Positions 1,699 to 53,707 of a DNA stretch of 64,000 bases are shown one piece after another (positions within the stretch are counted from its first letter, which is position 1; every line of letters starts with the position of its first letter). The notes under the pieces are model-generated. The model made no database searches and was not told where the DNA came from. It saw only the letters and a list, made by a program, of their open reading frames with translations. This DNA comes from Escallonia rubra (lineage: Eukaryota; Streptophyta; Magnoliopsida; Escalloniales; Escalloniaceae). The stretch covers positions 62,001-126,000 of the forward strand of contig JAVXUO010001128.1 of the NCBI GenBank assembly GCA_033065855.1, read 5' to 3'. The position numbers were made by a program, and so were the translations under genes.

Positions 1699-3249
1699 GG
1701 AAGCTGATCCGTTAAGAGCGCTAGCAAAATGAGGTATTTTGCAAGCGTGATCTGACTGTCCATCTTGAAAGATGGACGGCCCATATCGCGCCTTTTTCGA
1801 ATACTGTCAGTCGTCCGCGACATAGTGTCGCGGACGGACTTTTTTACCTTTTTGCCCCTCCGCCCCGTCCGCTACACTGTTTCCCGGACAGCATTCAAGT
1901 CCTGACACGCGACAGCAAAAAGGCATCCGATATACAGCATAGCGGACGTCTCTTTTTTTTTACGTTTTTTTAAAGTACGTCCGCTACATTATGTAACGGA
2001 TTATTTTTTGACAAATATACCCTTCAGCTCTCGTCCACTACATTATGTAGCGGAAGAGTAGACAGTGCCTTTTTCCCCTTTCTCTCTCATTTCTCACATT
2101 ATTTGTCTGACATGTTTCTATTTCTCTATCTTCCCTCATCAATGCTCATGTCTCTTTCTCATGAAAATTCTCTCATTTCTCTTTCTCTCACCACTTTTTA
2201 TTTTCTCTCACCACTTTTTACACCTCTCTATATCGTCTATTCCTCTAAACCCACCTTCACACACTCACACAGCAGCACATGCAAAGTCATATACACACAC
2301 ACACACACTCACACAGCAGCACATGCAAAGTCATACACACACACACACACACACACACAAAAAGATTGTACCCACTCTATTCTGTACACACACCAGCACA
2401 CTGTCCTTCACAGCCCCATTCTACACTCCCTAACAGAACTCTCATACACATACCCACACAGTTTACATGCAAGCATCCCTAAAACACACTCACATATTCA
2501 CTTAGCAAGCACACAGGCACTCACACACACATTTACTCACACAAAATCTGCACACAACACTACTCACATACGAAACACTCACCTGTATACCCATTACACG
2601 TGAGCTGCCTCTTGGCAGCATCACCATTTCACACACACTGCACCTCTAACCCCCCACTGCCATAACTCTCTCTCTAGCCCGCAGCCCCTCAACCGAATAT
2701 AAACTGTTGCACCGTCACAGCCACCATGGCTGTGGCTTGAATCCACCTCTTCGTCCATAAATGCACCCGCACAAACACGCACTCTTCCCTTCGGTTTCTG
2801 GCATGGACGAGAAAGAGAGAGAGAGTCAGAGAGTTAATTAGAGAAAGAGAAAAAAATGATGAGAGAGAGGAGAGAGAAAGGAAAAATGTCAGAACATTAA
2901 ATCAGGAAAAGGAGAGAGAGAGAAAGAGGAAAAAGTCAGAAGATTAGTCCGCTACATAATGTAGCGGACGGAAGCTAGAGGGTATTTTTGTCAAAAAATC
3001 GTCCGCTACATTATGTAGCAGACGTACTTAAAAAAACATAAAAAAATGATTTGGACCGTCCGCGATACAGTGTAGCGGACGGAGCAGAAGGGCAAAAAGG
3101 TAAAAAAAGTCCGTCCGCGACATAATGTCGCGGACGACTGACAGTATTCGAAAAAGGCGCGATCTGGACCATCCATCTTTCAGGATGGACGGCCAGATCG
3201 CGTTTGCAAGATCTCCTATTTTGCTAGCGCTCTCAACGGATCAGCTCTC
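1699..3249. mobile_element. Non-autonomous long-TIR element with hairpin-array TIRs (family A, copy 1)
   Basis: The left end (1699 onward, reading AGCTGATCCGTTAAGAGCGC) is repeated inverted at the right end (3249 backward, reading GAGAGCTGATCCGTTGAGAG). The TIRs are about 310-360 bp. The element sits inside a TA run, so a 9-bp TA-type duplication is likely but cannot be proven. Each TIR holds about four palindromes of CCGC-(T/G)AC-N5-GT-(A/C)GCGG type: left at 1813-1835, 1867-1889, 1980-2000 and 2034-2054; right at 2947-2969, 3001-3023, 3058-3080 and 3113-3135. The interior (about 2060-2940) is low-complexity CT/CA then GA repeat with no transposase. Long TIRs and a 9-10 bp TSD fit a Mutator-like element, but the superfamily is inferred. 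Copy 2 is at 42951-46492. Confidence 0.8.
2230..2600. repeat. CA-rich low-complexity tract in element A1
   Basis: Repeated (CA)n blocks with a duplicated unit containing 'CACACAGCAGCACATGCAAA' (near 2264 and 2310). The overlapping frames stay open only because CACACA lacks stops, so none should be read as a gene. Confidence 0.8.
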
Positions 3250-3514
3250 ATATATATATAATTTACAGTTCAATTCAAGATATAAAAGTCGGTTTTTTAC
3301 CTGAGTTACTTTCTGCTGCATAATTAGAATATCACGCTATTTTGTAAAAAAACTAATTTATAGGGATCAATACTTGTGCACATAACTTTGGGGATGATCA
3401 AGTAAAGGTCAAATACGACAGAAAAAAATGTTATAGAAAAAACATTTTTGAATCTAAAATGTTTCCTCGTCTAGCAATAATTTGGCCCCAAAGACTTGTG
3501 CAACATTGGAGTAT

Positions 3515-3990
3515 TAACAAAGTGTCCGTTTACAATTTTGGTTTTCCGTTTATAAAAAAACAAAAATCAAAACTAGTTTAACTTTTATTTTTTACAAAAT
3601 AAAAACAAATGGATGTTTGATTACCCAATTTTTATTTTGAGTTTTTTTATTTTGGGTGTTTGATTACCCAATTTTTTTTTTGTGGTGGTGGCGGCGGCTG
3701 TTGGGGGGGGGGGGGGGGGGGTGGCAGTGGCAGTGGCGGTGGTGGTGGTCTCAACACAAAAACCAAAACTACAAAATGAGAGTATTCAAAAAGTATCGCT
3801 GTTTTAAAAATTGGTTTTCAAAAGTGAAGAAGAAAAAAAATATTGTGTGTCAAACTCTTTTTTTTTCTCAATTTTATAAAATTGGAGAAAAAACTGAAAA
3901 CTTAAATGTTGTCAAACGCTATCAAAATTTTCTCCATAATTTTTTAACAGCAGTGTGGAAGATCTATACTTTAACGGCACAAAAACATGT
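3515..3990. mobile_element. Small AT-rich repeat (family E, copy 1) with a GGN/poly-G core
   Basis: Begins near a TAA with GTCCGTTTACAATTTTGG and holds two copies of 'TGTTTGATTACCCAATTTTT' (about 3615 and 3659). These match, inverted, the block at about 21,640-21,790. The centre is a GGT/GGC trinucleotide stretch with an uninterrupted run of 19 G (3703-3721). The copy at 6197-13020 suggests a PIF/Harbinger (Tourist) affiliation. The right edge is not resolved. Confidence 0.5.
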
Positions 3991-5082
3991 CTCAAAGAAG
4001 AATAGAAAATTAGAACCAAACAACAAAACACGAAAATTTAAAAGATGGAACATGTATTTTACAAGATGTGGAATCACACTTGCTGACAAATGTATTTGAC
4101 TTTTATCAAATCCTTTTATTTACCGTAAGAGTAAATAATCTTTGTTACTTACGGTTTTCGCTGTACAATTTATTTACCAGTTACCCAACATGGCTTACTT
4201 ACGGTTTTCGCTATCCTTTTAATATCTAACCATTATAGAAATTCCAGATTATGTCCTAATAGTTTCATATATTACAGATTAAGAATAATATTATCTTTGT
4301 ACCTAGGTTGATGATTAAAACAAAGATAGTATTGTTATAGAGGTTGACGATTTGACTGTGTAATGCCAATTTTTTTAGTGTTATGGGACGTAATATCGAA
4401 GAGGATGAATAATTTTTATTCTTGACAACAACGTATTAATAATTCGAATCAAGCTTTTACATTTTCTTAACCACGGATTCTAACATTCATAACGGTCTTT
4501 TAATCGGAGAATTGATATTGAGCTCTACTTTTAGCCATTTGACTTCTACTTTTATGGCTAAAGTTCTCTAACGTGTTGGGATCACTTTTGTGGGTTCCAA
4601 ATACTAAAAATGAAGCTAAAAATCCACTTCCTTTTTTTTAGCAATAAAGTAGATACCCTTTATTTCGTTTGAGGAATGTATATTTTCACACCCCCGTTAT
4701 GCTTTACTATGCTATCATTTTCGTTAAAACTTTTATGTTTGCCATTAATGCACTTTTTAATGAAAAGATAATAATATACAAAAAATATAAAGCATAGAAA
4801 AAGACGTTCCTTTTCGAAGCGCCTTGGTGCTGACTAGTTTAGTAGTCCAATAGTGTTCTAATAACACAACAATATACCCTACCTCCACGCCGTCTCCCTC
4901 AGCTTCCGGCTCCTCCACCAGTTCACCGTCCACCCTCTGTCTCCCTCTGCCTCAAGTTATGATCTCGGCCCAGCCCCTTATTTCTAGATGGTTTAAGTTT
5001 TCATATGATTTTCATCATTCTTCTAGTAGACCTACCTTATAGAGTTTAAGAAACTCTTCTCTCTTTTAACATGGTGGCGACA
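3991..5082. other. Intergenic spacer, nothing recognised
   Basis: AT-rich sequence without a supported gene. The only structure noticed is a short direct repeat, TTACTTACGGTTTTCGCT, near 4144 and 4195. Confidence 0.55.
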
Positions 5083-5090
5083 GTGGTGGT

Positions 5091-5671
5091 TAGGGGTGAG
5101 CACGGTTCGGTTGATTCGGTTTGAAGGCTGAATACCAAATCGAACTGACCAACCTCAGTTTGGGGGAAAAAAAACGAACTGTAGTTGAACGGTTCAGTTT
5201 CTGCGGGTTGAACGGATTGAACGGTTTGGTTTGGACAGTTTAATCGGTTTAGGCCAAACTCAATTTTAGGTAAGTTTAGACCCAAAAATTAATAACTTAT
5301 ACATACTAATAAGCTCCAAAAAAACTGAATTCTTTTACCATAATTAATAACACTTAGTGAGATGTAGGCGGCAAGTGAAAAATATGTGTTACGTTAAGGA
5401 ATTTAGGGTTTATCCCATTTTATATGAGTGCTTAGATAACTAGGGTTAGTAAAAATAACTAGGATTAGGTTAAAATATATATATATGTTATACTATATAC
5501 GGTTGGTTCGGTTTATACGGTTTATACGGTTTCAAAAAAATTCGAACCGAACTGAATTTACGGTTTGAAAAAAAATAAAATCAAACCGATTGATTTTTAG
5601 ATCAGTTTGGAAATAGACGGATTGGTTGGTTCGATTTTCACGGTTTCAACGATTTAAATGCTCACCCCCTA
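5091..5671. mobile_element. hAT-type MITE with perfect 8-bp TSD
   Basis: The ends TAGGGGTGAGCA and TGCTCACCCCCTA are inverted repeats. The element is flanked by identical 8-bp direct repeats GTGGTGGT at 5083-5090 and 5672-5679, the duplication length of hAT elements. Repeated GGTTCGGTT/CGGTTTATACGG motifs crowd both subterminal regions, as expected of hAT transposase-binding repeats. No coding capacity (581 bp). Confidence 0.9.
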
Positions 5672-5679
5672 GTGGTGGT

Positions 5680-6196
5680 GATGCAATAATACTGGTGGTA
5701 GTAGGGAAACGTGCTTGTAATATTGGTGGTCAGAAAGGTGGTGATGGCGTTATTGTAACATGATTTGCGAAGTGTTTACAGAAGAAGGCTTAAATGCGTC
5801 AACCCACTTTTAGCAGGTCCAAATTTGTGAAGTTCGAGTAACATTCAGAAGAGTTGAGATTCTATTTTAGACAAATAAATTACTGAGTTAGTGTATCAGA
5901 CAAGTGAGTTGCTAAACTATAAAATGCCATATTTACGACTTTGATGCTTTACATTGTTAGTTTTGATGTTACATGTATTAGTTTGTATACATTATGTGCT
6001 ATGAGTCTTTCTGCGATTACGCGTGCACCTGCATCTTGCATCTCGTGTTTAGGCTTTAGAAAAACTTTGCGCTTTGTGCGTGTACCTGCACTTTAATAAT
6101 AATGACTTGTACTCACGCTCTCGTTTTTGGCTCTTACTCTTGCTTCCGCTCTATCAACCGATAACTTGTAATTCTTCCCAAACCTTCAATGTCTAA
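5680..6196. other. Intergenic spacer, nothing recognised
   Basis: AT-rich sequence between two transposons. No gene, RNA or repeat could be supported. Confidence 0.5.
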
Positions 6197-21806: not shown

Positions 21807-22934
21807 GGGTCCGTTTGGAACCAATTCTTTTAGGATTTGGATTTCAGATTTGGAATTGGATTTAGAATTCAATTCACTTTTTTTTGTTTGGAACGAAAGG
21901 GAATTCAAATCACGGAATTCCAATTTTGTGTTTGAAGAACAGAGGAAATGGAAAGGTAATAAATTTTTAGACAATTATATCCTTAACAATAAATTACGGT
22001 AAGTGGTTTCAAGTGGGCTAGTGCCACCACATGGTGGTGGTGGTGGTGGCAGCATTGCACGGGGTAGCAACATCGACGATGGAAGTGGTGGGGTGGTCAA
22101 GTGATGGTAATGATGGTAGTGGTGGTCATCTACTAACGCCAATAGTGATGCCGGTGGCAATAGTGGTGACGGTGGTGGCAACAGTGGTGACAGCGGCGGT
22201 GACAGTAGTGATGTTGACGGCGGTGGTGGCGGTGGTGATGGTGGTGTTGCCGGCAATAGTGGTGGTGGCGACGGTGGTGGCAATAGTGGTGATGATGTGG
22301 TGGTGGCAGTAGTGGTGGCGACGGTGGTGGTGGTGGCATTATTGATGGCAATGGTGGCAGTGGCTGTGGCGGCGACAGTGGTGGTGATGGTTGTGGTGGC
22401 AATGGTGGTGGTGGCGATGGTGGCAATAGTGGTGGCGGTGGTGGTGGCAGTAGTGGCCGCGCCGGTGGCAGTTGTGGCAGTACTGGCCATAGTGGTAGCG
22501 GTGGTGGGGAGGGGTGTGGTGGCGGTGGTGGTGGTGGCGACGGTAGTGTTAGCGGTGGTTGTGGCGACAGTGATAGTGGTAGTAGTGGCGGTGGTGGTGG
22601 TGGTGGCGACAGTAGTGGTAGCGGTGGTGGTGGCAGTAGTGGTGCCGGTGGTGGTAGTAAAAGTGGTGTGGCGGTAACGGCAATGAAGATGGGGTGGTGG
22701 GTTCATTGTTGGAGAGATCCAGAAAAAGGGTAAGATAGGTAAATAATTAGTTTTAATTCAAGTAAATCGAAATCCCATGAAATCCGACCATTTTTCATCG
22801 GATTTCACACTATAGAAACAAATCCAGTCAAATCCCATAAAATCCAATTCCAATTCCTTTTTTTAATGTTTCAAACAACAAAATTTGAGGATTTGAAATG
22901 AAATCCCATCAATTCCATGGTTCCAAACACACTC
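21807..22934. mobile_element. Tourist-like (PIF/Harbinger) MITE with expanded GGN core
   Basis: Ends GGGTCCGTTTGGAACCA and TGGTTCCAAACACACTC are inverted repeats, flanked by TAA on both sides (21804-21806 and 22935-22937). Subterminal parts are A/T-rich with the repeated words AATTCCAATT and AAATCC. No transposase. The middle is a long GGN trinucleotide repeat. Confidence 0.85.
22020..22700. repeat. Imperfect GGN (GTGGTGGCA-type) trinucleotide expansion
   Basis: About 680 bp composed almost wholly of GGT, GGC, AGT and GAT triplets, with strong G-over-C strand asymmetry. Several overlapping frames stay open (for example 21975-22706 minus, Thr/Pro-rich), but they only reflect the triplet periodicity and should not be called genes. 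Confidence 0.85.
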
Positions 22935-32301: not shown

Positions 32302-33244
32302 TGCCCTCTCCTTCTTCCTCTTCCCTTTCCCCTTTTCACGCCCCCATAAGCACTAGCCCACTCACTGCGCCCCAAGCAGCCCCCCTTCCCCGGGCTGCTT
32401 CCCTTTTCCCCCTTCACTCCCATACGCACAACACACTTACATGCACACACAGTACACTCAACCCACACTTATATATATAATTTACATCAAAATGAACATG
32501 TTTTTTAAAAAAAGAATTACGCTTCTTTTATGAGTTTGATTTCCTTTCTTCTTTCTTCCCTTTCTTCTCTTTCTTTTCTTTCTCTTCCCTTGTTTTTCCT
32601 TCCTCCCTTCTCTGTTCTATCTTCTCACTTTCACGACTACTGTTTCTCTTCTCTATTCTGTCTTCTCTTTTTTTTTGTTCCCTTAATTGTATTTCCCTCA
32701 CCCGAATTCCCCTTCTAATTTCTTTTTGTTTCAATTTCTATCCAGCTCATTAGTCTATCATTTAATTTCCTTAGTCACCATACAACCATGTAGGAGGTGG
32801 CACCTCTTGAGAGAATTTTCTCTACAAACTTGACACATAATATCCAACTTTTCAAAATTGCAAATTGGCCCCCAAATTTTGTATAATTACATTTAGGCCC
32901 CAACTTAAATCAAATCCCTATCAATTTAATCTGATGTCACTAAAATATGTACTTTCACTCATTATATTATTTTTCACCGCTAAAAAATTATTTTACATTT
33001 ATGCCCCCAAAGTTTTCCAAAATTACAAAGTGGCCCCAAAAAAGTTGAAAATAATATTTTTGTCCCAAAATTATTTTAAGCTCTCATGCACTACTAATAT
33101 CCGAGCATTGTCCAAATTATCGTCTCCAAATTTTTTAGGACAACTTTTATGAGGTGGGGAGAAGTAGGAGGTGGGAATTTCCTATAGAATTATCGCCTGT
33201 TTGTTTTTCGGGTCACATATGGTTATTAATAGCAATTAGAATTA
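32302..33244 (-). mobile_element. Gypsy LTR, minus orientation, continuation after the hAT
   Basis: Resumes the LTR interrupted at 28,554; after removing the hAT and one TSD the sequence joins smoothly. It includes CT-rich stretches and the block CATACAACCATGTAGGAGGT...CAAATTGGCCCCC (32,779-32,875), repeated inverted at 36,120-36,215. Confidence 0.65.
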
Positions 33245-36095
33245 ATGTAATACCTGCATATTTTTTGAGCGCGTTAAAATATTTTTTTATTTCTAAGCGG
33301 CATTATATATTGGATGTCTGAAAAAAAAGAGAGTTTTAATTTTTAAAAGTCTGGAGGTTCTTTTTGTAAATACGTAAAGTTTGGGAGCCATTTGTGCAAT
33401 TTTATAAAAAAAATATTTAGAAGCTATTTTTTAGAGTGTGCCACCACCTACTAGCTTGAGTGACTCAGCTAAGTAAATAATTTAATATGGGGTGGATAAG
33501 GTCCTCGTGTGAAAGAAAGAAGAAAAGAAGAAGAAGTAAACAACAAGAGAAACAAGAAAGAAAGATAAAATAATGAAAACATAGAGAGAGGAAGGAAATG
33601 GAGGAGAAGAAAAGAATTTAGGAAATGAAGCAACCAAGAAACATAATCAGAGAAAGATAGAGAGAGTGTGTGTGCGCGCTGTTCATCGTGTGTACATGTA
33701 GGAATTAATCACCTCGGATGGATGATATAGAAGGTGTTGCAGCATGCGTTGGGTGAAGTGTATGAGAGTGCGGTTTATGTGTCTGTGTATGCAAAGGGAC
33801 GAAGGGGAAGGGGGAAACACAGCGGCAGCTTGCTGTGTGTTGTGTAAGTGCGTACTCTATGTGTGTGTTCGTATGTGAGTTGAGTGGAATTTGTGTGTGC
33901 AATTCATTGTTGGTGTATGTGTTAGTGTATGTTAATGGGTGTAAATAGGTGTAATAAATATGTTTAAGTGAGGTGGTTGGTATGTGCGTGAAAGTGAAAC
34001 ATTTTAGTCAGTGTTATAGCACCCCAGTGAAGTGGAAGAAGATGAAGTGTGTGCGCATTTAGGTGAAATGGTAGGTGCAGTAATCTAAATAGTAACTAAA
34101 ATTGTCGCTAAAGGTATGAATTAATTAGGCAGATTTAATCGGATTTTTTTTTTATAAATATCTAGGGTCAAAATTGGACAAAGTTCAAAACAGTAACCTC
34201 TGATATTTTTATGAGACGTACGCTCTGAAATGTTTCGGGAATTTTTGGTGCTCGCGAAGAGTGCTAAATTACGGTATCGGGTAACCAAAATTATCGAATT
34301 ATTTGTCATAGCAAATTAAGTTATTTTAATCTGAAAATTTTAGGAGAACCTTAATTTATTGATACAATTCATTATCTCGAATTTCATACCATTCAGAAGT
34401 CAATAGGTATTTTTAGCCGAACTAATTTTTAAGGGCTCGGTTCGGACACCGGTTTGGAATTTTCGGACGAAAATTTCCTAAAATACTTTTTAGATAGTAT
34501 TTTTTAAATATTTTTGGGATTTTTCCGGTGTCGGAAACCTACCAGGGATATTTTGATAATTTTACCTTTAAAAGGTAGTTTTGAGTAAATTTACATGTGA
34601 TAAGGCTATTTTGGCAAGTGTAATCACGTGAACACTGTTTTGGTGGCTGAGGGATGCAAGGGGTGTTTTGGTAATTTTTTTTTACCCCAGGGGCATTTTG
34701 ATAATTTTACACATCCGATTAGGGGGTCGTTCTGGGAATGTGCGTGAGTTAATAGTGAGTTATAATACAGTAATGTAAACTATATTTTAATCATTTTAGG
34801 AAAATTTCACCTGAAAATCTCGAACCGGTGTCCTGACCGAGCGCTTAAAAGTCGATTCGGCTAGAAATACCTATTGGCTTTGGAATGGTATGAAATTTGA
34901 GATAATGAATCGTATCATTAAATTAAGGTTCTCCTAAAATTTTTAGATTAGAATAACTTAATTTACTATGCCAAATAATTCAATAATTTTGATTACCCGA
35001 TACCCCAATTTAGCACTCTTCGCGGGCACCGAAAATTCCCAAAAAACATTTCAGAGCGTACATCTCATAAAAATATTAGCAGTTACTGTTTTAAACTTTG
35101 TCCAATTTTGACCGTAGATATGTATAAAAAAAATCCAATTTAATCTGCCTAATTAATTCCTACCTTTAACGACCATTTCAATTACTATTTAGATTACTAC
35201 ACCTACCATTTCACCTAAATGCACACACTTCTTCTTCTTCAACTTCACTGGGCTGCTAGAACACTCACTACTTTCACGCATATACCAACCACCTCACTTA
35301 AACATATTTATTACACCTATTTACACCCATTAACATACACTAACGCACACACCAACAATGAATTGCACACACAAATTCCACTCAACTCACATATGAACAC
35401 ACACATAGAGTACACACTTACATAGCACACATCAAGCTACCGCTGTGTTTCCCCCCTTCCCCTTCGTCGTCCCTTTGCATACACAGACACATAAACCACT
35501 CTCATACACTTCACCCCCCCTCAAGCACACACACAAGCATGCTGCAACACCTTCTATATCATCCATCCGAGGTGATTAATTCCTACCTGTACACACGATG
35601 AACAACACACACACTAATTTAAAGATACACGCATAATTAAGTAAAGGAATTTGCCCCTTACGAATTCTCTCTCTATCTTTCTCTGATTATGTTTCTTGCT
35701 TGCTTCCTTTCCCGAATTCTTTAATTTTCTTATCCTCTGTCTCTCTCTCTCTCTCTCTCTCTGTTTTCACTCTGTTTTATTTCTTTCTTGTTTATTTATT
35801 TTTCTTCTTTCTTTCACCCGAGGACTTTATCCACCCCATATTAGATTATTTACTTAGCTTAGTCACTTAAGTTAGTAGGTGGTGGCACACTCTAAAAAAT
35901 AGCTTCTAAATATTTTTTTATAAAACTGCAGAAATGGCCTCCAAACTTTACGTATTTACAAAAAAGAACCCCAAGACTTTTAAAAATTAAAAATCTCTCT
36001 CTTTTTTTTTGGACATCCAATATATATTGCCGCTTAGAAATAAAAACAATATTTTTAACGTGCTAAAAAAATATGCGGGTATTACAATTAAGTTG
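33245..36095. repeat. Large inverted repeat: two truncated gypsy LTRs, tail to tail
   Basis: The left arm starts TGTAATACCTGCATATTTTT at 33,245 (plus). The right arm starts TGTAATACCCGCATATTTTT at 36,095 reading on the minus strand. The arms are recognisably homologous to about 34,489 and 34,802, giving roughly 1.25-1.3-kb arms around a spacer of about 310 bp. TGTAATACC is the LTR start seen with PPTs at 56,782 and 58,194. Both arms include GA/CT-rich and CA/TG-rich tracts, so open frames in them are not genes. Confidence 0.8.
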
Positions 36096-37619
36096 GGGCC
36101 TAAATGTAATTCTAAAAAGTTTGGGGGCCAATTTGCAATTTTGGAAAGTTGGGCATTATGTGTCAAGTTTGTAAAGAAAATTCTCTCAAGAGGTGACCCC
36201 TCCTACATGGTTGTATAGAAATGATAAACTAATGGGTTGGATAGAAATGATAAACTAATGGGTTGGATAAAAATTGAAACAAAAAGAAATTAGAAGGGGG
36301 CATATTTCATAATTGTTTGCATTCGTTCTCCTGAACTATTGTACCTAAATTCGATAACCGTTAGTAATCGTTCTTGCTGCTTGTTGTGGTTATTCTGAAA
36401 TTCCATGTGATGACTTATATTAGTATGTTTATTGTTATTGAAACCCGAATTGATTTCAGTGATTTGAGGTTATGTTAATGCTCATTGATATTGTTGATTT
36501 TCTGTTGACCTTGGAAACCGTACTGGGAGGCATTATAAGGCTGATTTGAATCCTGCATGGAACGCAGGCTAGTACCCAGTGGGACTAGTTATTTTGGTAC
36601 ATCATGCATGTGTACACCATGCTGGCTTTACCTGAATGGCATTGCAACTGCCCATGATCAACATCTTTGAATTTGTTGACATTGTATCTTACCGTGACTG
36701 TTACATAAATTATTGGAAAGGATTGTCTCAAATAGTTTGTGTTTGTTTGAAATCCCTCCCCAGATTGCCTTTGAACTCATTTGAAATCATTTGGAAACCG
36801 TCATTGTATTTTGGAATGATGGCTTTGAAAATGATCTTTTTATTGATCGTTTTGGAACCCGTCGTGATTGGTATTGTTTATTTTGGTATCTATTTATGAT
36901 GAATTTTGATCATTTTGGAAATTATTTAGATCGTTTGAAGTATTTTTGCAAATCGTCGTCGGTTGGATACATTTGAATCGTTTTGTAATTTTTTCGATTG
37001 TCCTTGTACAACCTTATTGAACACTCAAAAGTTCACCCTTTGTTTGATTCCCTTTTGCAGGTAATGCTCAGCCGTATAATGCTCGGGAATGGGTTTTAGT
37101 GTCTGTGTGAGATTTCAGGAGTCTGTCATGTCCTTGTACAAATAGAAGTGATGATATTCTATTGGGCTTGAAGCCGCTCAGTCTAAACAGTGATGTATCA
37201 AAATAACCACTGACGTCGTTGAGCATTTTATTGGCCATCTAGACTTATTGCAATCGTTGAGAACTCATGATTAATTCTCCGATATTTCCTAATGGATCGT
37301 ATGTTGTACTCCACGTATTATCTTTACTAGGAAAGTTGTGCTCAATCCTTATTTCTTGTGTTTCAGGTACAACGTTTGAACGAGGTGATACCTCTAAGAA
37401 AGGTAAGCAAAATAATGCATTGAGGTACTCGATAATAGACGTGTTACGACCGTCGTGTACTTCGTTATATTTTTATATGGAATTGTAGTTTTAAGTTTTC
37501 TATGTGGTTGTATTGGTTTTAGCTAGTAAGACATGACATACCCTTGATGAGAGTCCAATGGGCCTGGGACTAGTTACAGAACTAATTCACGAGCCCATCA
37601 GTAGGTTTGGGTCGTGACA
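36096..37619 (+). mobile_element. Gypsy LTR, plus orientation, ending at a PBS
   Basis: A short 5' piece (36,096-36,305) joins directly to a 3' piece (36,308-37,619) that is the inverted homologue of 26,060-27,150, so the LTR middle is deleted. It ends GGGTCGTGACA and is followed by GAAATGGTAACAGAGC, a one-base variant of the initiator-tRNA-Met primer site TGGTATCAGAGC. Confidence 0.75.
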
Positions 37620-42946: not shown

Positions 42947-44261
42947 ATGTGGGAGCTTATCCGTTGACCGCGTGGAAAACTTGCTCTAAGTTGCCTGCGC
43001 GATCTGGCCGTCCATACTCGATCTGTGAACGGTCCAGATTTTTTTTTCGTTTTTTTAAGTCTGTCCTCTACATTATGTAGCGGATAATTTTTTGACAAAA
43101 ATACCCTCGAGCAGTACAGTACAGTGCTCGTCCACTGCATTATGTAGAGGACAAAATAAAGGAGTAGTCTTCTCTTTCTCTCTCTCCCTTATCTCATTAA
43201 TGTGTTTTGAAATTTTCTCTTTCTCTCTCTTTTCTCTCACTTTTTGTTCTCTCTCTCTCTCCTCCTCCTCTTCATCCTCTCTCTCTCTCTCCTCCTCCTC
43301 TTCATCCTCTCTCTCTCTCTCTCTCCAAGCTAGACCCATTCATAAATCATGACCAAATTTAGACAATGCAATCCCCCTTTGAATCTACTCCTTGCAAATT
43401 CGGAGGGTTCTGTTGGAAGCACTGAAGCTAATCCCCAAAAATATTTTAAAAAAATAACTAGGAAAATCCCAAAAATCAAATGGATTTAAAGGGCCCAGTT
43501 TGGTGGTGAGAGAATTGCTTGATAAGAGGAGAACTAGAAATCTTGGAACTTGGATGTTTCAAAAGAAATGGAAAAGAAAAACCATTTATGAGAGAATGGA
43601 GAGAGAAAGAAAGGGAAGTTAGAAAAGGTTGAGTCTGGAAATAGCTTGCCAGATGATGTTGTGGGAAGATTGGATGGAAAAGAATCTTATAGAGAGAATC
43701 TGAAGCCACTTGTTGCTCGTGCATGGTTTTCATCAGAAGCGTCCACGTGACAAGTACAATAAGTGAGATGCACAACTCTCAGGAGGACTTAGTGAAATAG
43801 CTTCTGCATGCGATTGCAATAAAACTAATGAACATCTCATCAATATGGTGGTATGCCGAAAGTCGAGGGAGAACCTCCTTGTGAGTACAATAGTTCATCA
43901 TCTTCTAAGTTTTGGCCTGAAAAACTAGGAAGCCAGTGCAGAGAATTTACGATTTGATGGATGAGGATGTGGTTGGTGAGGATGTGATAAATGCTAGTCG
44001 ATCTTTTGGTGTCTGCTATGGAAATTGTGGTATCTCATTTGTATCTAAGGGAAGATTTGTTAATAATAATTGTGGTGGCTGGTAGTAGAGAAAACTTCAA
44101 CTTGCAATGGATGTTTGACTTGGGATGGGAAATTTCATTGACTGGGTGGGAACAAATTATGGATGATTTTGCGGGAAGTGCTCATCTATTTATGGAAAGA
44201 AAACAAATTTTCACATTGGGAGGTCACTGTTTGTCTTTTGAGACAGAAACTGTTGAAATCG

Positions 44262-46069
44262 TGTTCACAACCTATTCGGACCGTACCCCGGGGGCCCGCT
44301 AAGAGATCCCAGTTGCACGACACGTCACCCGCTTGGCAGTCAAGATTGCTCAACATCATTGCTCGGTCAAAGCGCTCGGCACCTCGAGCATCCAGACGGC
44401 GATCGAAAGTGTGCCTCCACCCGAGGGGTCGACCACCCCCCTAAGAAAGGGGTCGGCCACACCCTGAAGAAGGGGGTCGGCCACCCTTGAAGAAAGGGGG
44501 CGGCCACCCTCTTAAAGGGGGTCGGCCACACCCTGAGGAAGGGGGTCGGCCACCCACTTTGTAAGGGGTTCGGCCGCCCACTTTGTAGGGGGGTCGACCA
44601 TCCACTTGGTAACGGGGTCGGCCTCCCTTGTCCTTGAGGGGGGAACCTGTTTGCCGCTGTATCACCTCACTCAACGCATTCTGCAATGCTCACTCATCAC
44701 CAGTGGTCGCGTGACGCCCGTTGTCGCCCGCTCAATCAACTGACGGGCTCCGGCCCTCGCGGCGGGACGGGCTCGCAACCCTAAAGCCCTCGCCGGCTCA
44801 ATCAACTGACGGGCTTCGGCCCTCGCGGCGGGACAGGCTCGCAACCTTGAAGCCCTCTCCGGCTCAATCAACTGAACGGGCTTCGGCCCTCGCGGTGGGA
44901 CGGGCTCGCAACCCTAAAGCCCTCGCCGGCTCAATCAACTGACAGGGCTCCGGCTTCATGGTGGGACGGGCTCGCAACCCTAAAGCCCTCTCCGGCTCAA
45001 TCCACTGACGGGCTCCGGCCCTCGCAGCGGGACTGGCTCACAACCCTAAAGCCCTCGCCGGCTCAATCAACCGGGGGCTCCGGACCTCACCCGCTCAATC
45101 AACTGACGGGCTCCGACCCTCACGGCGGACGGGCTCACAACCCTAAAGCCCTCGCCGGCTCAATCGACTGACAGGGCTCCGGCCCTCGCCCGCAGGATGG
45201 GCTCACGATCCCGAAGCCATCGCCAGCACAATCAACCGACGGGCTTCAGGGGGTTTCGCTCATAGTGCTCCGGCATGAGGACTCCCCGCCACAGACTCTG
45301 GGTATCGAGCTGTGAGCATGTGCGGTCATGTTACCATTGATCATCAACACCGCCAGGGTAATGAACCGCGGGTCACTCCGAGACGGGATCAGGTCCTTGA
45401 AGGGCATCGCGTCCGACACGCCTGGCAGTTGGCTGCAGGGGCAACCCTCGCCGCTGTCAGGATCTTTGCGCGTCTTTTAACGCATCTTATGGGATTCAAT
45501 AAGGGCTTCGACTGGAGGCTGGGGCAACGGGCTACTCTGACCATGCTACCGCGGTGTGGTCAGTCTCCTCAGACAGGCAGAGGGACGCTGCAAGGGCAGG
45601 GCGGCACGAACTCGGGGACCGGAAATTTGACGGACAATCAATACTGTGGGACCCCTTCTGGCGACGTGTCACTCCCGGAGGATGACACGTGTCGACTAAT
45701 GACACGCGCGCATTTGTGCCTACATATAGTGGACTTTGGAGCTTATTCAAGGACTTCTCTCTCATTTCAACATTTCACTTTCTCTCTCTAAAACTCATTC
45801 TCTCTAGATTTCTAGTGAGAGAAACACATTTGGACTCCTGTCATCGGACCTTTGACGCTGCACCCTTGACTCGGACTGTTGACCGTCGGCCCTGTTCGTC
45901 GTCACCCTGCCTCCGCAACACTGCCAGCCCGCGCGACCTGTCTGGGGAGCCTTGCTCTCAGCCCTTACTCCATCCTTGTTGTCTCCCACTTTGTCTACTT
46001 GGAAGCCAACTCAGACTGCATCCTTTGTGGCACCTCGACGTGGCAACGGACCCTCTTTCCTCGGCAACA
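44262..46069. mobile_element. Solo LTR, GC-rich family S, copy 1
   Basis: TGTTCACAACCTATT...CTCGGCAACA, beginning TG and ending CA, 1808 bp. Flanks AATCG and AATAG (4 of 5 identical). Collinear with 47304-48861: GGACCGTACCCCGGGGGCCC at the start, a promoter-like stretch (TACATATAGTGGACTTTGGA) near 45,720, then CTCTCTCTAAAACTCATTCT. GC-rich tandem repeats fill 44,400-45,250. No PBS or internal domain, so a solo LTR; the orientation is probably plus. Confidence 0.82.
44720..45250. repeat. 66-bp GC-rich tandem repeat, about eight copies
   Basis: Unit of about 66 bp built on GGCTCAATCAACTGACGGGC, CCTCGCGGCGGGACGGGCTC and GCAACCCTAAAGCCCTCGCC. Preceded (44,420-44,640) by GGGGGTCGGCCACCC-type repeats. 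All frames through it are repeat artefacts. Confidence 0.85.
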
Positions 46070-46492
46070 AATAGTCCCTGTAATTCAGATGCTGAAATGG
46101 AGATGTAAGAGAATCAATGGCAGTGGGGAGGTGAATACAAGTCAAGTCAGAGAGAGAGAGAGAGAGAGAGGAGGAGGATGAGGATAAGAGAGAAAACAAA
46201 AAGTGGTGAGAGAAAAGAGAGAAAAAGAGAAAAAGTCAGAACACATTAACGAGAGAAGGGAGAGAGAAAGAGAAGACTACTGCCTTATTTGTCTGCTACA
46301 GAATGTAGCGGACAAGCACTGTACAATACTGCTTGAGGGTATTTTTTTTCGAAAAACCGTCCGCTACATTATGTGGCGGACGGACTTAAAAAAAATACGA
46401 AAAAAAAGATCTAAACCGTCCACAGATCACGTATGCACAGTCAGATCGCGCGGGCAACTTAGCCCAAGTTGCCCGCGCGGTAACGGATCAGT

Positions 46493-46519: not shown

Positions 46520-47303
46520 CCACCATAAATCTGGCTGTCCACGTGTACTCGTGGATGGACCAGATCTATTTTTTTTTCAAAAGTAGTAACCGCGACTCCT
46601 TAAAGCGGTTACAAATATCCCATAAATACCCCTCCCAGGCAAAAAAGACCCCAACCGCTACTCTTAGTAGCGGTTGGGGGCCTACCAATAACCGCTACTC
46701 TTTGTAGCGGTTAAGGGCCTACCAATAACCGCTACTCTTTGTAGCGGTTGGGTTTGAATCCCATTAAAAAACCCTAAAAAACCCCCAGCTACCGCACTAA
46801 ACCTTTAAATAACCCTAAAAAAAACCCCAGCTACCCCACTTTCCCTAAGCTGCAGCAATAAATGACCCTCGACCGCTACAAAGAGTAACGGTGTGGCCCC
46901 TAACCGCTACTCTTTGTGGCGGTTGGGAGAATTTTGTCTTCACCTTCACGAGCTCTCTCTCTCTCCCCTTCTCTTCACCTTCACTAGCTCTCTCTCTCTC
47001 TCTCTATCATTCACGGGTCTTTTTTTTCTCTTTCTCTCCCTCTCTCATTCACGGATCATTTTTCTCTCTTTATAACATTCACAAATTCTTGGCTCTCCAA
47101 CACCCCTGTCGACAGAAACCCCTTTTCACTCTCTATCATCTTCCCCAGCTCTTTCTTCCATATTCTACATAATCTCCACTACAACTTAAACAAACAAAAT
47201 TATACACTAGAAGATCGGTGGATAATTGCTAGAAGATTAGTGGAAATTTTCCTTAAATATATCAAGTTCAAAGCAAGTAAGTATTTCGAATTTTCATATA
47301 AAT

Positions 47304-48861
47304 TGATCCTAACCTATTTTGGTCGTACCCAAGGGCCCACCAGGGGTCCCATTTTGAGTGACACGTCACACAATCAACGGTCAATTTTTCAACGCTATCA
47401 ACCGGTCAAAATGAATCTTGCATCGGATGTTCGCGGAAATTTGTTACTAACATATTTTTGTTGCCAACGTAGCAACGTCAACGACACCAACACTTGGGAA
47501 AAGCATGCAAGTGAGCAACACCACCTCGAGAGCTTGGCCACCTCCTTTTTAAGGGGGTGGGGTGTCGGCCACCTACTTAAAGAAGGGGTCAGCCACCTCC
47601 TTAAGGAGGGGGGGGGGGGGGCGTCGGCCACCATCTTTAAGGAGGGGTCGGCCACCCTCTTAATGGACCGGGTCGGCCACTCATGTCTCGGGGGGGGGGG
47701 GGAGGGGGTTGTAAGCCCCCATGCGCCACAATCATGTCTCGTGCTGTAGGCACTGCGCCCATGCGCCACAATCATGTTACATGCCTCCGGGCACCACACT
47801 CATTCACCACACCATGTGCCTACGCCATGGACGTGGAACATGCTTCGACCCACTCTCCGGAGTGTGCAGCATTCCGAGGGGCTCCGCTCGTAGTGCTCCG
47901 GCACGAGGACCCTTCGCAGCGGGATAGGCTCGTTACCACAAAGCTATCGCCGTCTTCATTCCGGGGGGCTCCGCTCGTAGTGCTCCGGCACGAGGACCCT
48001 CTGCAGCGGGATAGGCTTGTTACCACAAAGCTATCGCAGTCTTCATTCCGGGGGGCTCCGCTCGTAGTGCTCCAGCACGAGGACCCTCCGCAGCGGGATA
48101 TGCTCGTTACCACAAAGCTATCGCCGTCTGGGGTGACTTGCATGACACTAGGCACTGAGCTGCGACCATGTCCACTCACGTTACCGGTGATCATCGGCGC
48201 CCCCATGACGATGACCCGCGGGTCACTCCGGGATGGGAGCAAGTCTTTGGAGGGCATCGTGCCTAGTCCCCCTGGCAGTTGGCTACAGAGGCAACCCTCA
48301 CCGCTGTCAGGTTATCTTCGTGACTCTTGACGTACCTTGTGGGATTCAGTAAGGGCTTGGACCGGTGGCTGGGGCAACAGGCTTACTCTGATCACACCGT
48401 CGTGTGTGGTCAGTCTTCTCAGATAGGCAGAGAGAAGCTGTATGGGCAGGACAATGTGAATTTGGGAACCGGCAGTTCGACGGAGAACCGGTATTTGCCT
48501 ATAAATAGTGGACTTTGGAACTCATTTAAAGACTTCTTTCTCATTTGAAATTTTCACTTTCTCTCTCTAAAAATCCATTCTCTCTAGAATTCTAAAGAGA
48601 GAAACACATTTGGACTTCTGACATCAGACCCTTGACGTTGCACCCCTGACTTGGACCCTAGCTTGGATTATCGACTGTCGGCCCTGTTCGTCTCTGCCTT
48701 GTCTGCGCAGCACTGCTAGCCCTCACGGCCTGTTTGGGAAGCCTTGCTCTCTGTCTTTACTCCACCCTCACTGTCTCTCACTTTGCATACTTGGAAGCTG
48801 ACTCGAACTGTAGCCTTTGTGGCACCTCCACGTAGGTACGAACCCATTTTCCTTGGCATCA
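47304..48861. mobile_element. Solo LTR, family S, copy 2, with perfect TSD
   Basis: TGATCCTAACCTATT...CCTTGGCATCA, 1558 bp, flanked by identical TAAAT at 47299-47303 and 48862-48866. TATA-like CTATAAATAG at 48499-48508 and a CT-rich leader mark the promoter. Three tandem units of about 85 bp (GGGGCTCCGCTCGTAGTGCT, GGACCC, GCAGCGGGATA, CACAAAGCTATCGC) lie at 47,868-48,125. The open frames here come from these repeats. Confidence 0.9.
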
Positions 48862-48954
48862 TAAATCAATGTTAATTTCATGAATTGAAACTTCTTTATC
48901 TTTCAATTGGCCTTTATTTTATGCTTAAATTGTTCTTACCATAATATCAAATTA

Positions 48955-49465
48955 GAGTTTTTTAGAAATTGAAATTAGGGATTGAACTAGCAACTTTTAG
49001 GTTATGAAATTAGGGTTTTGCTTGAGATTCGAAATTGGGTTTTTTTTACGTTTTCAAAATTTGGGAGTTTTTTGGGCTTCAAAATTGGGGTTTTTTTTAG
49101 GGATTCAAAATTAGGGTATTTTTAGGTTTTCAAATGGAGGGTTTTTAAGGCTTCAAAATTGGGACTTTCAAGGGCTTCAAATTTTGGGAATTTCTTAGGG
49201 TTTTCAAAATTAGAGTTTTTAAGGCTTCAAAATTAGAGTTTTTAGGGCTTTACAATTGGGGGTTTTTTAGGACTTCAAAATTGGGGGTTTTTTTGCCTTC
49301 AAAATTGGGTTTTTTTAGGGCTCAAGATTAGGGGTTTTTTAGCGATTTGAAATTGGGGGTTTTTTAGAGCTTCAAATTTAGGAGATTTGTTCAATAATTC
49401 AGATTTTAGGGTTTTTTAGTGCTTCAAAATTGGGGGTTTTTAGGCCTTCAGAATTGGGATTGTTA
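48955..49465. repeat. GGGTTTTTTAGGGCTTCAAAATT minisatellite, degenerate
   Basis: About 18-20 imperfect units of 22-30 bp of the form GGGTTTTTTAG-GGCTTCAAAATT, lying directly upstream of the PMD reading frame and so possibly its promoter or leader. Confidence 0.8.
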
Positions 49466-49552
49466 ATAGGATTATGTGTTCTTGTTTTAGTTTTCGGATG
49501 TAAATAATACGCACGCTAAGTTAGTTTACGATCATATATTTTTCTTAGAGAT

Positions 49553-50815
49553 ATGGAGTTCAACCCCAGACTTTATGATTCATCAATCCTATACGATGAC
49601 GATGACCACGTCGCGATGGACGTATTTGACGGTATCGGAAGGGGTGTTTTGGAAACAATTCAAAACACAAGTCACCTCAAAGAGTGGGTACTAAATGAGA
49701 AAAAAAATAATACAAATATTATACTGTCAAAATTTATCTATGTTCACCGCCCTTCATCATTGGTCTCGGCACGGCGAGTGCCTTATATCTGTTCTAGCTG
49801 AGCGATGGCGGAGCGAGACGAACTCATTTCAGTTTCATTTTGGTGAAATGGCTATTACATTAGAGAACGTCGGATTTATACTTGGACTCTCATGTCATGG
49901 CAGACCCATTACTTTGGGTAGGACGTCAGCAACGATAGCTCAGATGGCTAGGCAGTATTTTTCGGGAATTTCGAAAGAAGCTCTTATAACAAACGACATC
50001 AAACTTAAATGGCTGAGAGAGCAGTATGGTGTGCTACCTAATGCATACACTCCCATGATTTTGTGACGTATACGAAGGCATTCTTGCTGTATATTATTTG
50101 AGCTATATTACTTCCGACGCATTCAAAAAACACGGTGCATTCAAAGTATATGTTGTTCTTGGATGACCTCGGGGAGATATACTCTTATTTGTGGGGTTCA
50201 TCTGTACTTGCGCACCTATATCGAGCACTGCATAAAGCTACGAGAAAGGGTGCCAAGTCCATTGCCGCTTGCCTAACTCTATTACAGGTATGAGCATTTA
50301 TATTCTTGTTTGACGTGTCAATATATTCGTGATTAATTACTAATTCCATATAATATTTGCATTCACATGTTTGGTCTGACGAAAGGCTACCTACGGGCCT
50401 TACACGGCCGCGAGATGATTCTGATGAGACCTGGCCTATGGCGTGGGATTGGGGGCATATGCCCGGCCGGAAGGGCATAGGATACTAGAGGCATCACAGG
50501 TGACGTGGTAGCCATACACGAAGGTGATGCAACGGTTGAATGAGTTTTGTTGGCAACTTCTGATGTCGTATGTGCTGGCAGGTTTGGTTCGGGTGCCGCT
50601 CATTCCCTTCGAAGTATGTGAGTTTCAGATGCCCGATCGAGCTATGAGGCAAGCTGGATGTCTACAAGAGATACCAAAACCCGCTAAGACATGCGGCCAT
50701 ATAGGAAGGGCTGAGGGCTGAGCTTCGAGGTTCCTGATGCCTTAGATATGTTGAGCGATGAGGTGCAACAGTGGATTACTTGGCATGAAATGTATGATAC
50801 TCAAGGTGACGCGCA
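49553..50815 (+). pseudogene. Plant mobile domain (PMD, MAIN/MAIL-like) gene, frameshifted
   Basis: An initial frame starts MEFNPRLYDSSILYDDDDHV. A frameshift before 49,800 leads to CLISVLAERWRSETNSFQFH and FGEMAITLENVGFILGLSCH, the hallmark of the plant mobile (aminotransferase-like) domain. A second shift near 50,066 gives TYTKAFLLYII and LDDLGEIYSYLWGSSVLAHL YRALHKATRKGAKS, with a donor-like CAGGTATGAG at about 50,287. The C-terminal part, VPLIPFEVCEFQMPDRAMRQ, is at about 50,600-50,660. Cellular PMD proteins (MAIN, MAIL1) act in the nucleus in gene expression and TE silencing. The domain is also common inside plant transposons, as here. The frameshifts and an internal stop indicate a dead copy. 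It converges with the FAR1 gene. Confidence 0.85.
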
Positions 50816-52733
50816 CGAGTGTGAATCGCCATTCCAAGGTGAAAAAGATAACATATGCGCCACGTGAGATAATCACCATTCTGGGTGTTGATTGCTCAAA
50901 ATCAACTGTAACATTGGGCACGTAAGGTATGTGACCGTGTACTCTATTGTCTTGCTTTATCCACCGCTCTGAGATATACTCTTGCGGACTTTCACAAGCA
51001 TTCTTAGCGCTAAAAAATCTCAACGCGTGTCGACAAAGTATGCCTTTATGCTCAAACAATTGACATTTGCAATTAACAAATCCTGTGTACAGATAAACCG
51101 CTATGGTGAAATGTCTTATGTTCTTCAGAGCCGAAGATGAGTAGGGATTGGCAAAATTCGTCACATTTGTCAAAGCATAAACTTTGAGATCTTTGTTGCA
51201 CTGCTTGTGCAATTTTGTCATGCTATACTGATTCGACTTTTGTAGTTCCTCTTGAAACTGTCTAAACATTTTCTTTGTATAGACTTGAGCCGCATGAGCC
51301 TCCAAAGGTGAAAAAACTAATATGGCTCTTTCTCTGTAAACAGTAGCCCCGTCGGCTTCTCTCTCAAGGAAAAATTGCTTGTCAAGGGCTTTTTGCATCT
51401 CAAGTACGAACTCTTTTATACTTGAAGAATGGCCTACGTACCCATCAAAGAATGCATTCATACCTTCGCTTCTCAAGGTCGTAGTCATTCCGGCTGCAAA
51501 ATACTTTTTGGTGTAGGCACCGACCCATTGTGTCTTGATCTCATACAACGCTTTCAACCATTCATGACTGTGCAAAGAGTAGTCATCCATTAACTTGGCC
51601 CACCTCCTCTCGAACACGTCGACCGTCAACGATTTCTTCACACATGTATTAAAGTCACTCTTGAATGTCGGATGGTTTGCATATACATTGTGAAGCCGTT
51701 CAGGATATTTGTTGCTTTTGTGCCATGTGCACAGGCCATGATGAGTATCTGGAAAGACCCTAGCGATTGCATTTTTCATTGCAAAATCCTGGTCGGTGAT
51801 GATGGTTTTTGGAGGAATATGATACATTGCTTCAAGCCAGGTTTCAAATAACCATGTAAATGACTCATCCGTCTCATCCCTAAGCAGGGCAAAGCCAAAC
51901 AAGATTGATTGATAGTGGCGGTTCACCCCGGTAGATGGAGCAAAAGGCATATATAGAGTACTTATTTGTGCGGTATGTGGTGTCAAACGTCACAACATCG
52001 CCAAAGTTTTGGTAAGCAGCTCTAGAACGGGCATCAGCCCAAAATATAGTACTAATACGGTTCTCATCATCCAGTTGGAGACTATAGAAAAAGCCAAAAT
52101 TCTCACTCTGAAGGCGCTTGAAGATATCAAGCGTAGCCTGAGAATCACTCTTATTGAAAGGATCTCTCCTCTGAGCATGGAGTTCATTTCGAAGGTCTAC
52201 TTCGCTAAAGCTCAACTTGTCAATCCCCCCAGCCTGGCTTGAGAAAACCCCCATCATTCTAGAAGGTGGAATTTTTGCCTCGACCATTGTAAATATCAAT
52301 TGTCTGTGTGCCGCACTTATTTTTCGGTGCGAATGAATTTGACCGACCTTACTAAGGGTCATCAATTAATGATTATGGCTCAACTCGACTGCCGTCACAA
52401 CCCAATGGTTTTCATTTTTTTGATGTACAGCATACACATGGACCTTGCAGCCGGTACCCAAAAATATGTCCTTTTTCTTTGTCTTGTTGGCCCTTCATCA
52501 CTGATCCGAACAACCGGGGATACATGCGGTGCTCCTCTATGACACTCAATTAGTCGGGAACAAATTTGGTCTATTTTCGCCCGTTTTCTAGTCGTCTTAA
52601 TTCTAACACCGAAACCCAGCATTTTTGAATATGCTCTATAGTATGCTTCAACTTCGTCCAGTGTTTGAAAAACTTGACCTTTGTAAGGTGGGTCAGAATC
52701 TTCACAAAAATTATTTCCTCCAATTGCATCCAT
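50742..52733 (-). pseudogene. FAR1/FHY3-type MULE transposase, frameshifted
   Basis: Start ATG at 52,733 (MDAIGGNNFCEDSDPPYKGQ). FAR1 DNA-binding domain: GQVFQTLDEVEAYYRAYSKM, RIKTTRKR, then after a frameshift GCKVHVYAVHQKNENHWVV and LSHNH followed by TAA. MULE domain: FGDVVTFDTTYRTNKYS (first Asp), a second frameshift near 51,955, MPFAPSTGVN, IITDQDFAMKNAIARVFPD (second Asp), GLCTWHKSNKYPERL, and TLRSEGMNAFFDGYV with the presumed Glu. SWIM finger: VNCKCQLFEHKGILCRHALR. Two frameshifts and one stop disable it. FAR1 and FHY3 are host transcription factors derived from such transposases. Position between the TIRs of element B shows that this is the transposon's own gene. Confidence 0.9.
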
Positions 52734-53702
52734 ATTTATATTTAAATCTACATAAATATTTTTTTATAAATTATCAACACATCATAGAATTAACATTAAG
52801 TTTTGTAAAGTAAAGAAACTGAAATGAAATGGAATGAAAAGGAATAACTTACAATGTAGTATTGATACTTTCAATTGTCTCCTACTTCAAGACAATCGCT
52901 CCAATTTTGAACACAAACCAATATCACCAACTATGGATAAGCTAGCTTCAAGATATAAGTAAAACTTACTAGATCTAATTGAACTTGGATTGTTGCTAGA
53001 GACTTAAAGCTTTGTGATGTTGGAAGAGTTTAATAGAATTTTTGTTTGGGGTTGATGAAAGATGTGGTGGTGAAGAAATGGGGGTTTAGGGTTTATGGAA
53101 GAGGAGGAAATGGTTAGGGCTCGTGAATGGGGAAGAAAAATAAAGAGAGAGAGAAAGAAAAAGATTGAGAGGGTGTTGGAGAGAGGGATAGTGAGAGAGA
53201 TATAGAGAAAATAAGGGATCCAATGTGAAGAGAGAGAGAGATTGCCAAAAGAAAGAAAAAAAGGACAATCATCCCCAACCGCCACAAAGAGTAGTGGTTA
53301 GGGGCCCACAGCGCTACTCTTTGTAGCGGTCAAGGGTCATTTATTACTGTAGCTTGGGGAAAATGGGGTAGCTGGGGTTTTTGTAGGGTTATTTAATGGT
53401 TTAGTGGGGCAGCTGGGGTTTTTTTAATGGTTAAGTGGGGTAGCTGGGGTTTTTTTTAAGGGTTTTTTTTTAATGCGATTGAAACCCAACAGCCACAAAG
53501 AGTAGCGGTTATTGGTGGGCCCTTAACCGCTACAAAGGTTGGGGTCTTTTTTGCCTGGGAGGGGTATTTCTGTAACCGCTTAAAAGACTAGCTGTTACCA
53601 CTTTTGAAAAAAAAAACAGATCTAGTCCATTCATGAGTACACGTGGACGGCCAGATTTATGGTGGAGAAATAACTATTTCTACACTGATAGATGTGGATC
53701 GG

Positions 53703-53707
<5 letters not shown>

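Follow-up and report, generated by a model that had tools for sequence, protein, structure and literature searches.

The 64,000-nucleotide stretch analysed here (the window: Escallonia rubra assembly GCA_033065855.1, contig JAVXUO010001128.1, positions 62,001 to 126,000) contains three Mutator-like elements (MULEs), termed A, A2 and B, whose terminal inverted repeats (TIRs) carry arrays of the 19-bp palindrome CCGCTAC-N5-GTAGCGG. We infer from sequence that a protein binds these palindromes, and our favoured reading, to which a probability of about 0.5 is assigned, is that they are symmetric sites for a dimer of an element-encoded protein and mark the non-coding DNA of a single clade of FAR1-type MULEs targeting TA microsatellites. 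A dimeric reader is proposed because the palindromes combine a rigid spacing, a common CCGC/GCGG core, a fixed distance to the element end, a conservation above that of their neighbours and paired changes of the two arms.

Within the window, 18 matches to the motif were found at up to 2 mismatches versus 0.03 expected from 100 shuffles, 4 of them exact. All 18 fall inside the three elements, which make up 19% of the window and whose coordinates, proposed earlier from the letters alone (the sequence-only reading), proved correct to within a few letters. A looser motif definition adds three window matches outside the TIR arrays (13087, 14288 and 44574); the last sits within a solo-LTR-like (long terminal repeat) insert of A2. 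The genome-wide search suggested by the earlier reading was performed on the source assembly (566,129,122 bases, 3,222 contigs) and returned 7,263 exact sites, the reversed-pattern control yielding 3. Permitting spacers of 0 to 30 raised the total to only 7,407 (control 42), so that 98% of the sites have a spacer of exactly 5 and the common spacer length claimed from the window holds throughout the genome. In 20 loci (L005-L024), which are stretches around the first places in the genome-wide motif listing and were hence selected for containing the motif, CCGC-Nk-GCGG occurs 137 times for k=11 and 0 to 4 times for every other k of 3 to 23. The window shuffles, the genome control and the peak at k=11 rule out a chance origin of the motif.

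The arms are less uniform than first described, namely as the same 7-bp arms throughout. A 7-bp core arm is found in the B type of palindrome, which has a TCTTT spacer and an outward extension (AACCGCTAC..GTAGCGGTT) and is scarce in the genome (138 sites, 67 + 71), but the arms reach 9 bp, and often 11-12 bp, when the spacer is ATTAT, ATAAT or ACAGT (CGTCCGCTACAT-T-ATGTAGCGGACG). Moreover, 14 of the 18 window sites carry 1-2 mismatches, and sites 1815 and 3115 of element A read CCGCGAC..GTCGCGG, being altered on both sides. A single rigid palindrome is ruled out, since the arms vary.

Many of these arm changes are paired. With one letter left free in each arm (CCGCNAC-N5-GTNGCGG), 10,452 sites were obtained genome-wide (control 37), comprising 7,263 with the T/A pair, 1,816 altered on both sides (control 28) and 1,373 altered on one side; arithmetic from these counts gives about 599 both-sides-altered sites expected under independence. 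By hand count, 48 of the first 50 both-altered sites listed are complementary, the exceptions being C1:22424 and C67:25049. The arm pairs T/A, A/T, G/C and C/G are each seen, and the A/T form, CCGCAAC..GTTGCGG, accounts for 1,341 sites (control 0). Letter pairing was also compared with shuffled sites in a set of 145 distinct sites from 28 stretches, the window included. An excess was obtained at letters -1 (138 versus 99.9 expected), -2 (113 versus 82.1), 5 (107 versus 97.6) and 7 (97 versus 78.2), with a weaker one at letters -3 and -6 and no clear excess at letters -5, -4, 6, 8 and 9.

The palindromes occupy defined places in the element ends. In the 20 loci, 41 of the 52 exact sites lie at most 460 bp inward of an end motif resembling GGGAGCYGATCC, versus 11.8% of random positions; the expected concentration of the motif in TIRs is thereby borne out, and this proximity rules out, for the loci read, a genomic repeat independent of transposons. 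The remaining 11 sites belong to L005, L009, L010, L011 and L018, all having pieces of transposase or of a plant mobile domain (PMD)-Ulp1 gene. At least one palindrome is present in 30 of 33 element ends, the first being located 110-124 bp from the terminus in 21 of these 30 and the second at 169-187 bp in 19 of 23. An alignment was built from 27 TIRs, six ends being left out as other lineages (L019_2237, L019_1296, L028, L030, L031 and window 53707). In its columns 100-200, pairwise identity reaches 80% in the arms of the first two palindromes versus 57% between them, a contrast matched by 2 of 100 circular shifts, and the palindromes are thus conserved beyond neighbouring DNA, as the earlier reading required. 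Over all columns beyond 100 the values are 67% and 50%; the narrower comparison was relied on because gaps weaken the contrast at sites 3-4. As for the terminal sequence said to be shared by the elements, GAGAGCYGATCC is exact only at 3238 in the right end of A and at 53696 in that of B, the other ends being variants of GGGAGCYGATCC. Between the terminus and the array, many ends contain two extra stems of other sequence, which vary by family while their pairing is kept (GCGCTAGCAAAAT/ATTTTGCTAGCGC, CGCGTTGGCAA/TTGCCAACGCG, GGTGGAGAAAT/ATTTCTCCACC). The best stem in letters 12-62 exceeds all 50 shuffles in 20 of the 33 ends and fails to do so in 13 (among the 20, the stem of L028 is an array palindrome itself). 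Such ends are built of palindromic modules as in Foldback/FARE-type elements, and A and other copies have the long TIRs of the MULE superfamily.

An autonomous element could be delimited at C17:22231-31827 (9,597 bp; L016-L017), its boundaries being fixed by the 9-bp target-site duplication ATTAAACAA on both flanks and by GGGAGCTGATCC at its start and end. The duplication lies in the 8-11-bp range of MULEs; that of a copy in C1213 is alike in 8 of 9 letters by eye. Three genes were identified: an open FAR1-MULE-SWIM transposase of 783 amino acids (aa) at L017:1693-4041 (MULE PF10551, E 3.9e-33; FAR1, E 3.6e-13), PMD-Ulp1 and B3. The MULE transposase domain is found in both L017 and window element B. 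Convergent to the transposase are frames matching PMD (E 3.6e-34 and 3.9e-17) and an Ulp1-like Peptidase_C48 (E 0.0011, just under the Pfam cut-off), which, because of their order, would form a single gene. The two-exon B3 gene lies between PMD-Ulp1 and the transposase (L017:665-1132, equal to C17:27665-28132); its exon 2 alone matches PF02362 with E 1.1e-8 and 35.3 bits against a curated cut-off of 30.1, and seven PDB matches are weak (E 0.02-0.7: VRN1, FUS3, At1g16640, TEM1, an auxin response factor, LEC2 and RAV1). The accessory frames scanned by Pfam, a subset of all frames, included PMD, Peptidase_C48, DUF7745 and B3 and no VANC-type DUF1985 (DUF287) protein. A second element, C9:511,926-521,747 (9,822 bp), has the same gene order.

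The C17 element carries 25 palindromes (4 at the left, 17 in the centre forming two blocks on either side of the B3 gene, and 4 at the right) and the C9 element 20 (5, 11 and 4), with a reversed control of 0 in each. In both they stand beside all three genes, upstream of each, and none falls in a coding frame (0 of 25 in 5.3 kb of frames in C17, 0 of 20 in 5.0 kb in C9). Short motifs tandemly arrayed in non-coding DNA are a feature of VANDAL/VANC elements, too, and by analogy the layout resembles VANDAL/VANC anti-silencing. In the central arrays, sites are spaced at about 77 bp or multiples of it, tandem spacings of 54-79 bp being present, and the repeat units of these arrays differ between related elements. 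Large central arrays occur in C17, C9, L005 and L010, the four loci with B3 in which the central region was read, and B3 was detected in five loci read (L005, L008, L010, L011 and L017), in four of which it lies between two palindrome blocks in the same order. The substitution ratio of the B3 exon is 0.64-1.44 in 6 pairs versus 0.28 for one transposase pair, a rough count made without significance test on four of the five copies with stop codons skipped (L010 and L008 have them). Fast evolution, relaxed constraint and decay are each compatible with this ratio, which may have been raised by decay, since two of the four copies compared contain stop codons.

The C17-type element appears to have multiplied lately. 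As only the best candidates were scored, the following figures are lower bounds drawn from a non-random sample: the best 57 of 4,806 first-look transposase candidates all show an identity of at least 99% across 783 aa, 55 of them being stop-free, and the best 150 of 1,394 B3 exon matches are all at least 98% identical. A listed B3 exon accompanies 19 of the 57 transposase copies at no more than 5 kb and in the same relative place, versus 0.15 expected. With at least 55 open transposase copies at this level of identity, the sequences point to a very recent burst of the ~9.6-kb autonomous element, which, given dozens of open and near-identical copies, may still be mobile. Among 8 further B3-bearing copies, at least one end was placed in five (C408, C519, C1213, C1338, whose left stretch starts with N, and C2300), the ends of C854, C825 and C2128 not being placeable. 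In four of the five, palindromes lie about 118, 173 and 328 bp from the terminus (one also has a site at 231), and in C1213 four sites are 45 bp closer to it.

TA tracts adjoin A at both ends and A2 and B at their right ends. Four of the 8 further copies likewise have a TA tract at an end and one occupies a non-TA site; the 27 end hits adjoin TA by construction of the search. A preference for (TA)n targets, as in MuTAnT and SaTar elements, is thus apparent, although the C17 element itself lies outside a TA tract. Copies inside (TA)n are not scorable for target-site duplication.

The sequence-only reading had taken the palindromes for the binding site of a shared transposase or of the PMD protein, to which B3, not visible to that reading, is added here as a third candidate reader; it had also proposed that A once depended on B as its autonomous partner. 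This partnership is ruled out by TIR comparison over 220 bp: the TIRs of A are 76-85% identical to the ends of L005, L006, L011, L012, L016, L017 and L023, and 59-62% identical to the right end of B, approximately the level of shuffled sequence (58-59%). Judging from its TIRs, A is therefore a passenger of the C17-type lineage rather than of B. The TIRs of A2 are in between (63-71% to the C17-type lineage, 60-63% to B). What stands of the claim is that the palindrome, better conserved than adjacent DNA, accompanies related FAR1-type MULE transposases. Relatives of the L017 transposase were found in 10 of the 20 loci (L017 included, some loci being neighbours) and in window element B, the transposases of the C17 and B lineages being 43-55% alike in three matched pieces.

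The best 101 of 3,526 candidates for the B transposase, B included, are all at least 82% identical, with many 774-aa open frames. Of 71 B-like transposases, 5 have a TCTTT palindrome within 6 kb versus 0.15 expected, and none is listed for the other 66, in a count covering contigs up to C2024 outside the window and 100 of the 138 sites. A B-like element of C1212 (L030, L031) has GGGAGCCGATCC ends and CCGCTAC-WCTTW-GTAGCGG sites at both. The palindrome array of the 774-aa lineage is AACCGCAAC; in its member on C241 (L028), the end with GGGGGTTGATCC abuts (TA)n and the palindromes read CCGCAAC..GTTGCGG, both arms being altered. The 5' non-coding DNA of this family (L025, L026, L027 and L028) has another, long and non-palindromic repeat (GGGGGCATTTCGGTAATTTGCCGC..), possibly another lineage-specific array. 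B3 was not found in window element B nor in the parts of B-like elements examined (L025-L031).

In the mechanism proposed, a dimer of an element-encoded protein would read the symmetric sites CCGC-N11-GCGG with their 5-bp spacer, whose fixed places are about 117 and 172 bp from the terminus. The FAR1-type transposase would be the most likely reader of the TIR sites, which autonomous and non-autonomous copies alike keep; it is favoured because pieces of transposase (and PMD) were seen in the C17 and B lineages alike and B3 in the C17 type alone, and because non-autonomous ends retain the sites. The large central arrays would serve a second use, the switching on or de-silencing of the element's own genes. 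Arrays beside genes are unexplained by end recognition, and a regulatory or anti-silencing role like that of VANC fits, on the excerpted text of the papers cited here and below (PMC5735166, PMC10398659). Several observations weigh against recognition by such a dimer. The symmetry is not strict, since many C17 central sites read CCGCTACATTGTATAGCGG with the seventh letter unpaired and pairs 6, 8 and 9 match no clearly better than chance. The site counts represent copies and not independent changes, and families with few changes that were amplified later would also inflate them. The extra TIR stems, palindromic with unlike sequence, hint at structure over one recognised sequence. Three 774-aa copies have no palindrome within 1.4-1.5 kb next to the transposase (the one examined further out has palindromes near its terminus). 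In L008 the B3 piece has no adjacent palindrome and its strand is opposite to that of the transposase piece. In L018, pieces of PMD-Ulp1 and of the transposase are arranged back to back, and both B3 and a central array are absent.

The arrays could instead be anti-silencing operators of the VANC kind, a reading that we regard as unlikely, in which B3 or PMD-Ulp1 would target them and remove silencing marks from the element's non-coding DNA, the transposase not being the reader. Arrays flanking three genes with all 45 sites outside coding frames (two elements), ~77-bp central repeat units differing between related elements as VANC targets do (PMC5735166), and a B3 exon that changes fast while the transposase does not are consistent with it; anti-silencing by a MULE-captured PMD is put forward as speculation in the excerpt of PMC5418596. 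The failure to find B3 in window element B or the examined parts of its relatives and the stop codons in two of four B3 copies fit this reading poorly, and the end palindromes retained by short non-autonomous copies are better suited to transposition. Slightly more doubtful is a candidate self-recognition system in which a captured, fast-evolving B3 (with PMD-Ulp1) would bind the palindromes in the non-coding parts of the element and of its passengers and lift silencing; this recently amplified three-gene MULE would be independent of VANDAL/VANC, and sister lineages would have shifted to different arm letters, for which each would have its own reading proteins.

A role of structure rather than sequence, with the palindromes acting as cruciforms of the DNA or hairpins of the RNA (through folded single-stranded ends or transcript structure), would account for TIR stems I and II, palindromic with a sequence differing by family, and for the two-sided changes in the array arms; it is improbable in view of a near-invariant spacer of 5 and a common CCGC/GCGG core, neither of which a hairpin needs, and of letters 7 and 9 often being unpaired. 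Paired changes would also arise without selection if the palindromes were a mechanical by-product devoid of function, with template switching at imperfect palindromes correcting arm to arm and tandem duplication spreading the unit, in keeping with the 54-79-bp spacings; the fixed terminus distance in many families, the conservation above adjacent DNA and the absence from coding frames are left unexplained, making this quite improbable. A plant transcription factor driving the element genes through sites upstream of all three genes in C17 and C9 is hardly credible, as the arm letters vary by family in one genome (T/A 7,263, A/T 1,341), which is expected of co-evolving element proteins.

Table 1. 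Coordinates of elements A, A2 and B, their palindromes and their coding pieces in the window.
Feature	Position	Strand	Remarks
Element A, non-autonomous MULE	1699..3249		~360-bp TIRs, hairpin stems, 4-5 palindromes per end, (TA)n flanks
A palindrome, both arms changed (CCGCGAC-ATAGT-GTCGCGG)	1815..1833		117 bp from terminus
A left-TIR palindromes	1869..2053		1869 (decayed), 1927 (decayed), 1981, 2035; spacing 54-58 bp
A right-TIR palindromes	2949..3133		2949 (exact), 3003, 3060, 3115 (CCGCGAC..GTCGCGG)
Element A2, related non-autonomous MULE	42951..46488		1-2 recognisable palindromes per end
A2 left palindrome	43065..43083
A2 right palindromes	46293..46379		46293, 46361
Element B, MULE whose PMD and transposase pieces converge	46520..53707		left terminus without 42 letters
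B left array, AACCGCTAC-TCTTT-GTAGCGGTT type	46655..46922		46655, 46692, 46729 (exact), 46873, 46904
B plant mobile domain pieces	49695..50685	+	PMD PF10536 E 2.2e-17; convergent with transposase
B transposase piece	50742..51989	-	MULE domain PF10551 E 8.5e-23, SWIM
B transposase N-terminal pieces	51880..52763	-	FAR1 E 2.2e-4 (under Pfam cut-off); ZSWIM RNaseH-like
B right array	53279..53508		53279, 53311, 53490
(AT)n microsatellite	53708..53780		adjoins B right end

The inverted arms of A measure 172 and 99 nt. The left end of A2 is flanked by (TG)n adjoining (TA)n, and the left end of B, minus its 42 terminal letters, abuts the (TA)n of A2. Two related solo-LTR-like insertions with TG..CA ends and GC-rich tandem repeats are located at 44262-46069 (in A2) and 47304-48861 (in B), the latter having TAAAT on both flanks by eye. 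Elsewhere in the window, other large inverted repeats (26607-27150/36298-36840, 32780-36216 and 56102-58882; arms of 78-305 nt, 76-95% complementary) have no motif match and are probably foldback elements, and a degenerate tandem repeat rich in GGT occupies 22140-22655.

TA-targeting MULEs, foldback TIRs, antisense PMD genes and FAR1-MULE-SWIM transposases are already known. Ulp1-like genes occur in MULEs (Kaonashi), and short transposase-binding motifs are arrayed near both ends of En/Spm (CACTA) and Ac (hAT), those motifs not being strict 19-bp palindromes. Our search of open-licence papers returned no description of palindrome arrays as a hallmark of MULEs, nor of a MULE carrying B3. Within the reach of these searches, three features are new: a 19-bp palindrome array found across the lineage, with arms that co-vary; its occurrence next to each gene of an element with three genes; and the possession of a B3 gene by a MULE.

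MuTAnT of Medicago and gSaTar, rSaTar and TAFT of guayule, rice and maize likewise insert into (TA)n, produce 9-10-bp duplications elsewhere and have an autonomous MULE partner (PMC4486113, PMC5907723), and the long TIRs of MuTAnT are also composed of foldback modules (PMC4486113). Neither a shared 19-bp palindrome array nor an accessory PMD-Ulp1 or B3 is described for them in the excerpts of these two papers, the terms 'palindrom' and 'hairpin' being absent from that of PMC5907723. Groups 42 and 45-50 of the plant MULEs likewise have a transposase with SWIM, a PMD gene that is often antisense, and a 9-bp duplication, whereas 'Ulp1' is absent from the main-text excerpt of PMC6446971. CitMule, a citrus FAR1-MULE, has a protein of 795-805 aa with the same FAR1, MULE and SWIM domains and likewise a 9-bp duplication, but its TIRs are short and degenerate, and the excerpt describes no second gene or palindrome array (PMC4334395). 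VANDAL21 of Arabidopsis is similarly a three-gene MULE with tandem short-motif arrays in its non-coding DNA, which are bound by the element-encoded, fast-evolving VANC (PMC5735166). VANC is a DUF1985/DUF287 protein and its motif YAGTATTAY is not termed palindromic in the excerpt (PMC5735166), whereas B3 and PMD-Ulp1 are found here; VANDALs mostly have no TIRs or degenerate ones, some relatives having them (PMC6446971), whereas the TIRs are long here. With sister lineages differing by paired letters at a fixed geometry, the present elements provide a compact, testable case of transposon DNA-binding proteins co-evolving with a candidate operator, and, should B3 be the reader, they would constitute an independent counterpart of VANC anti-silencing.

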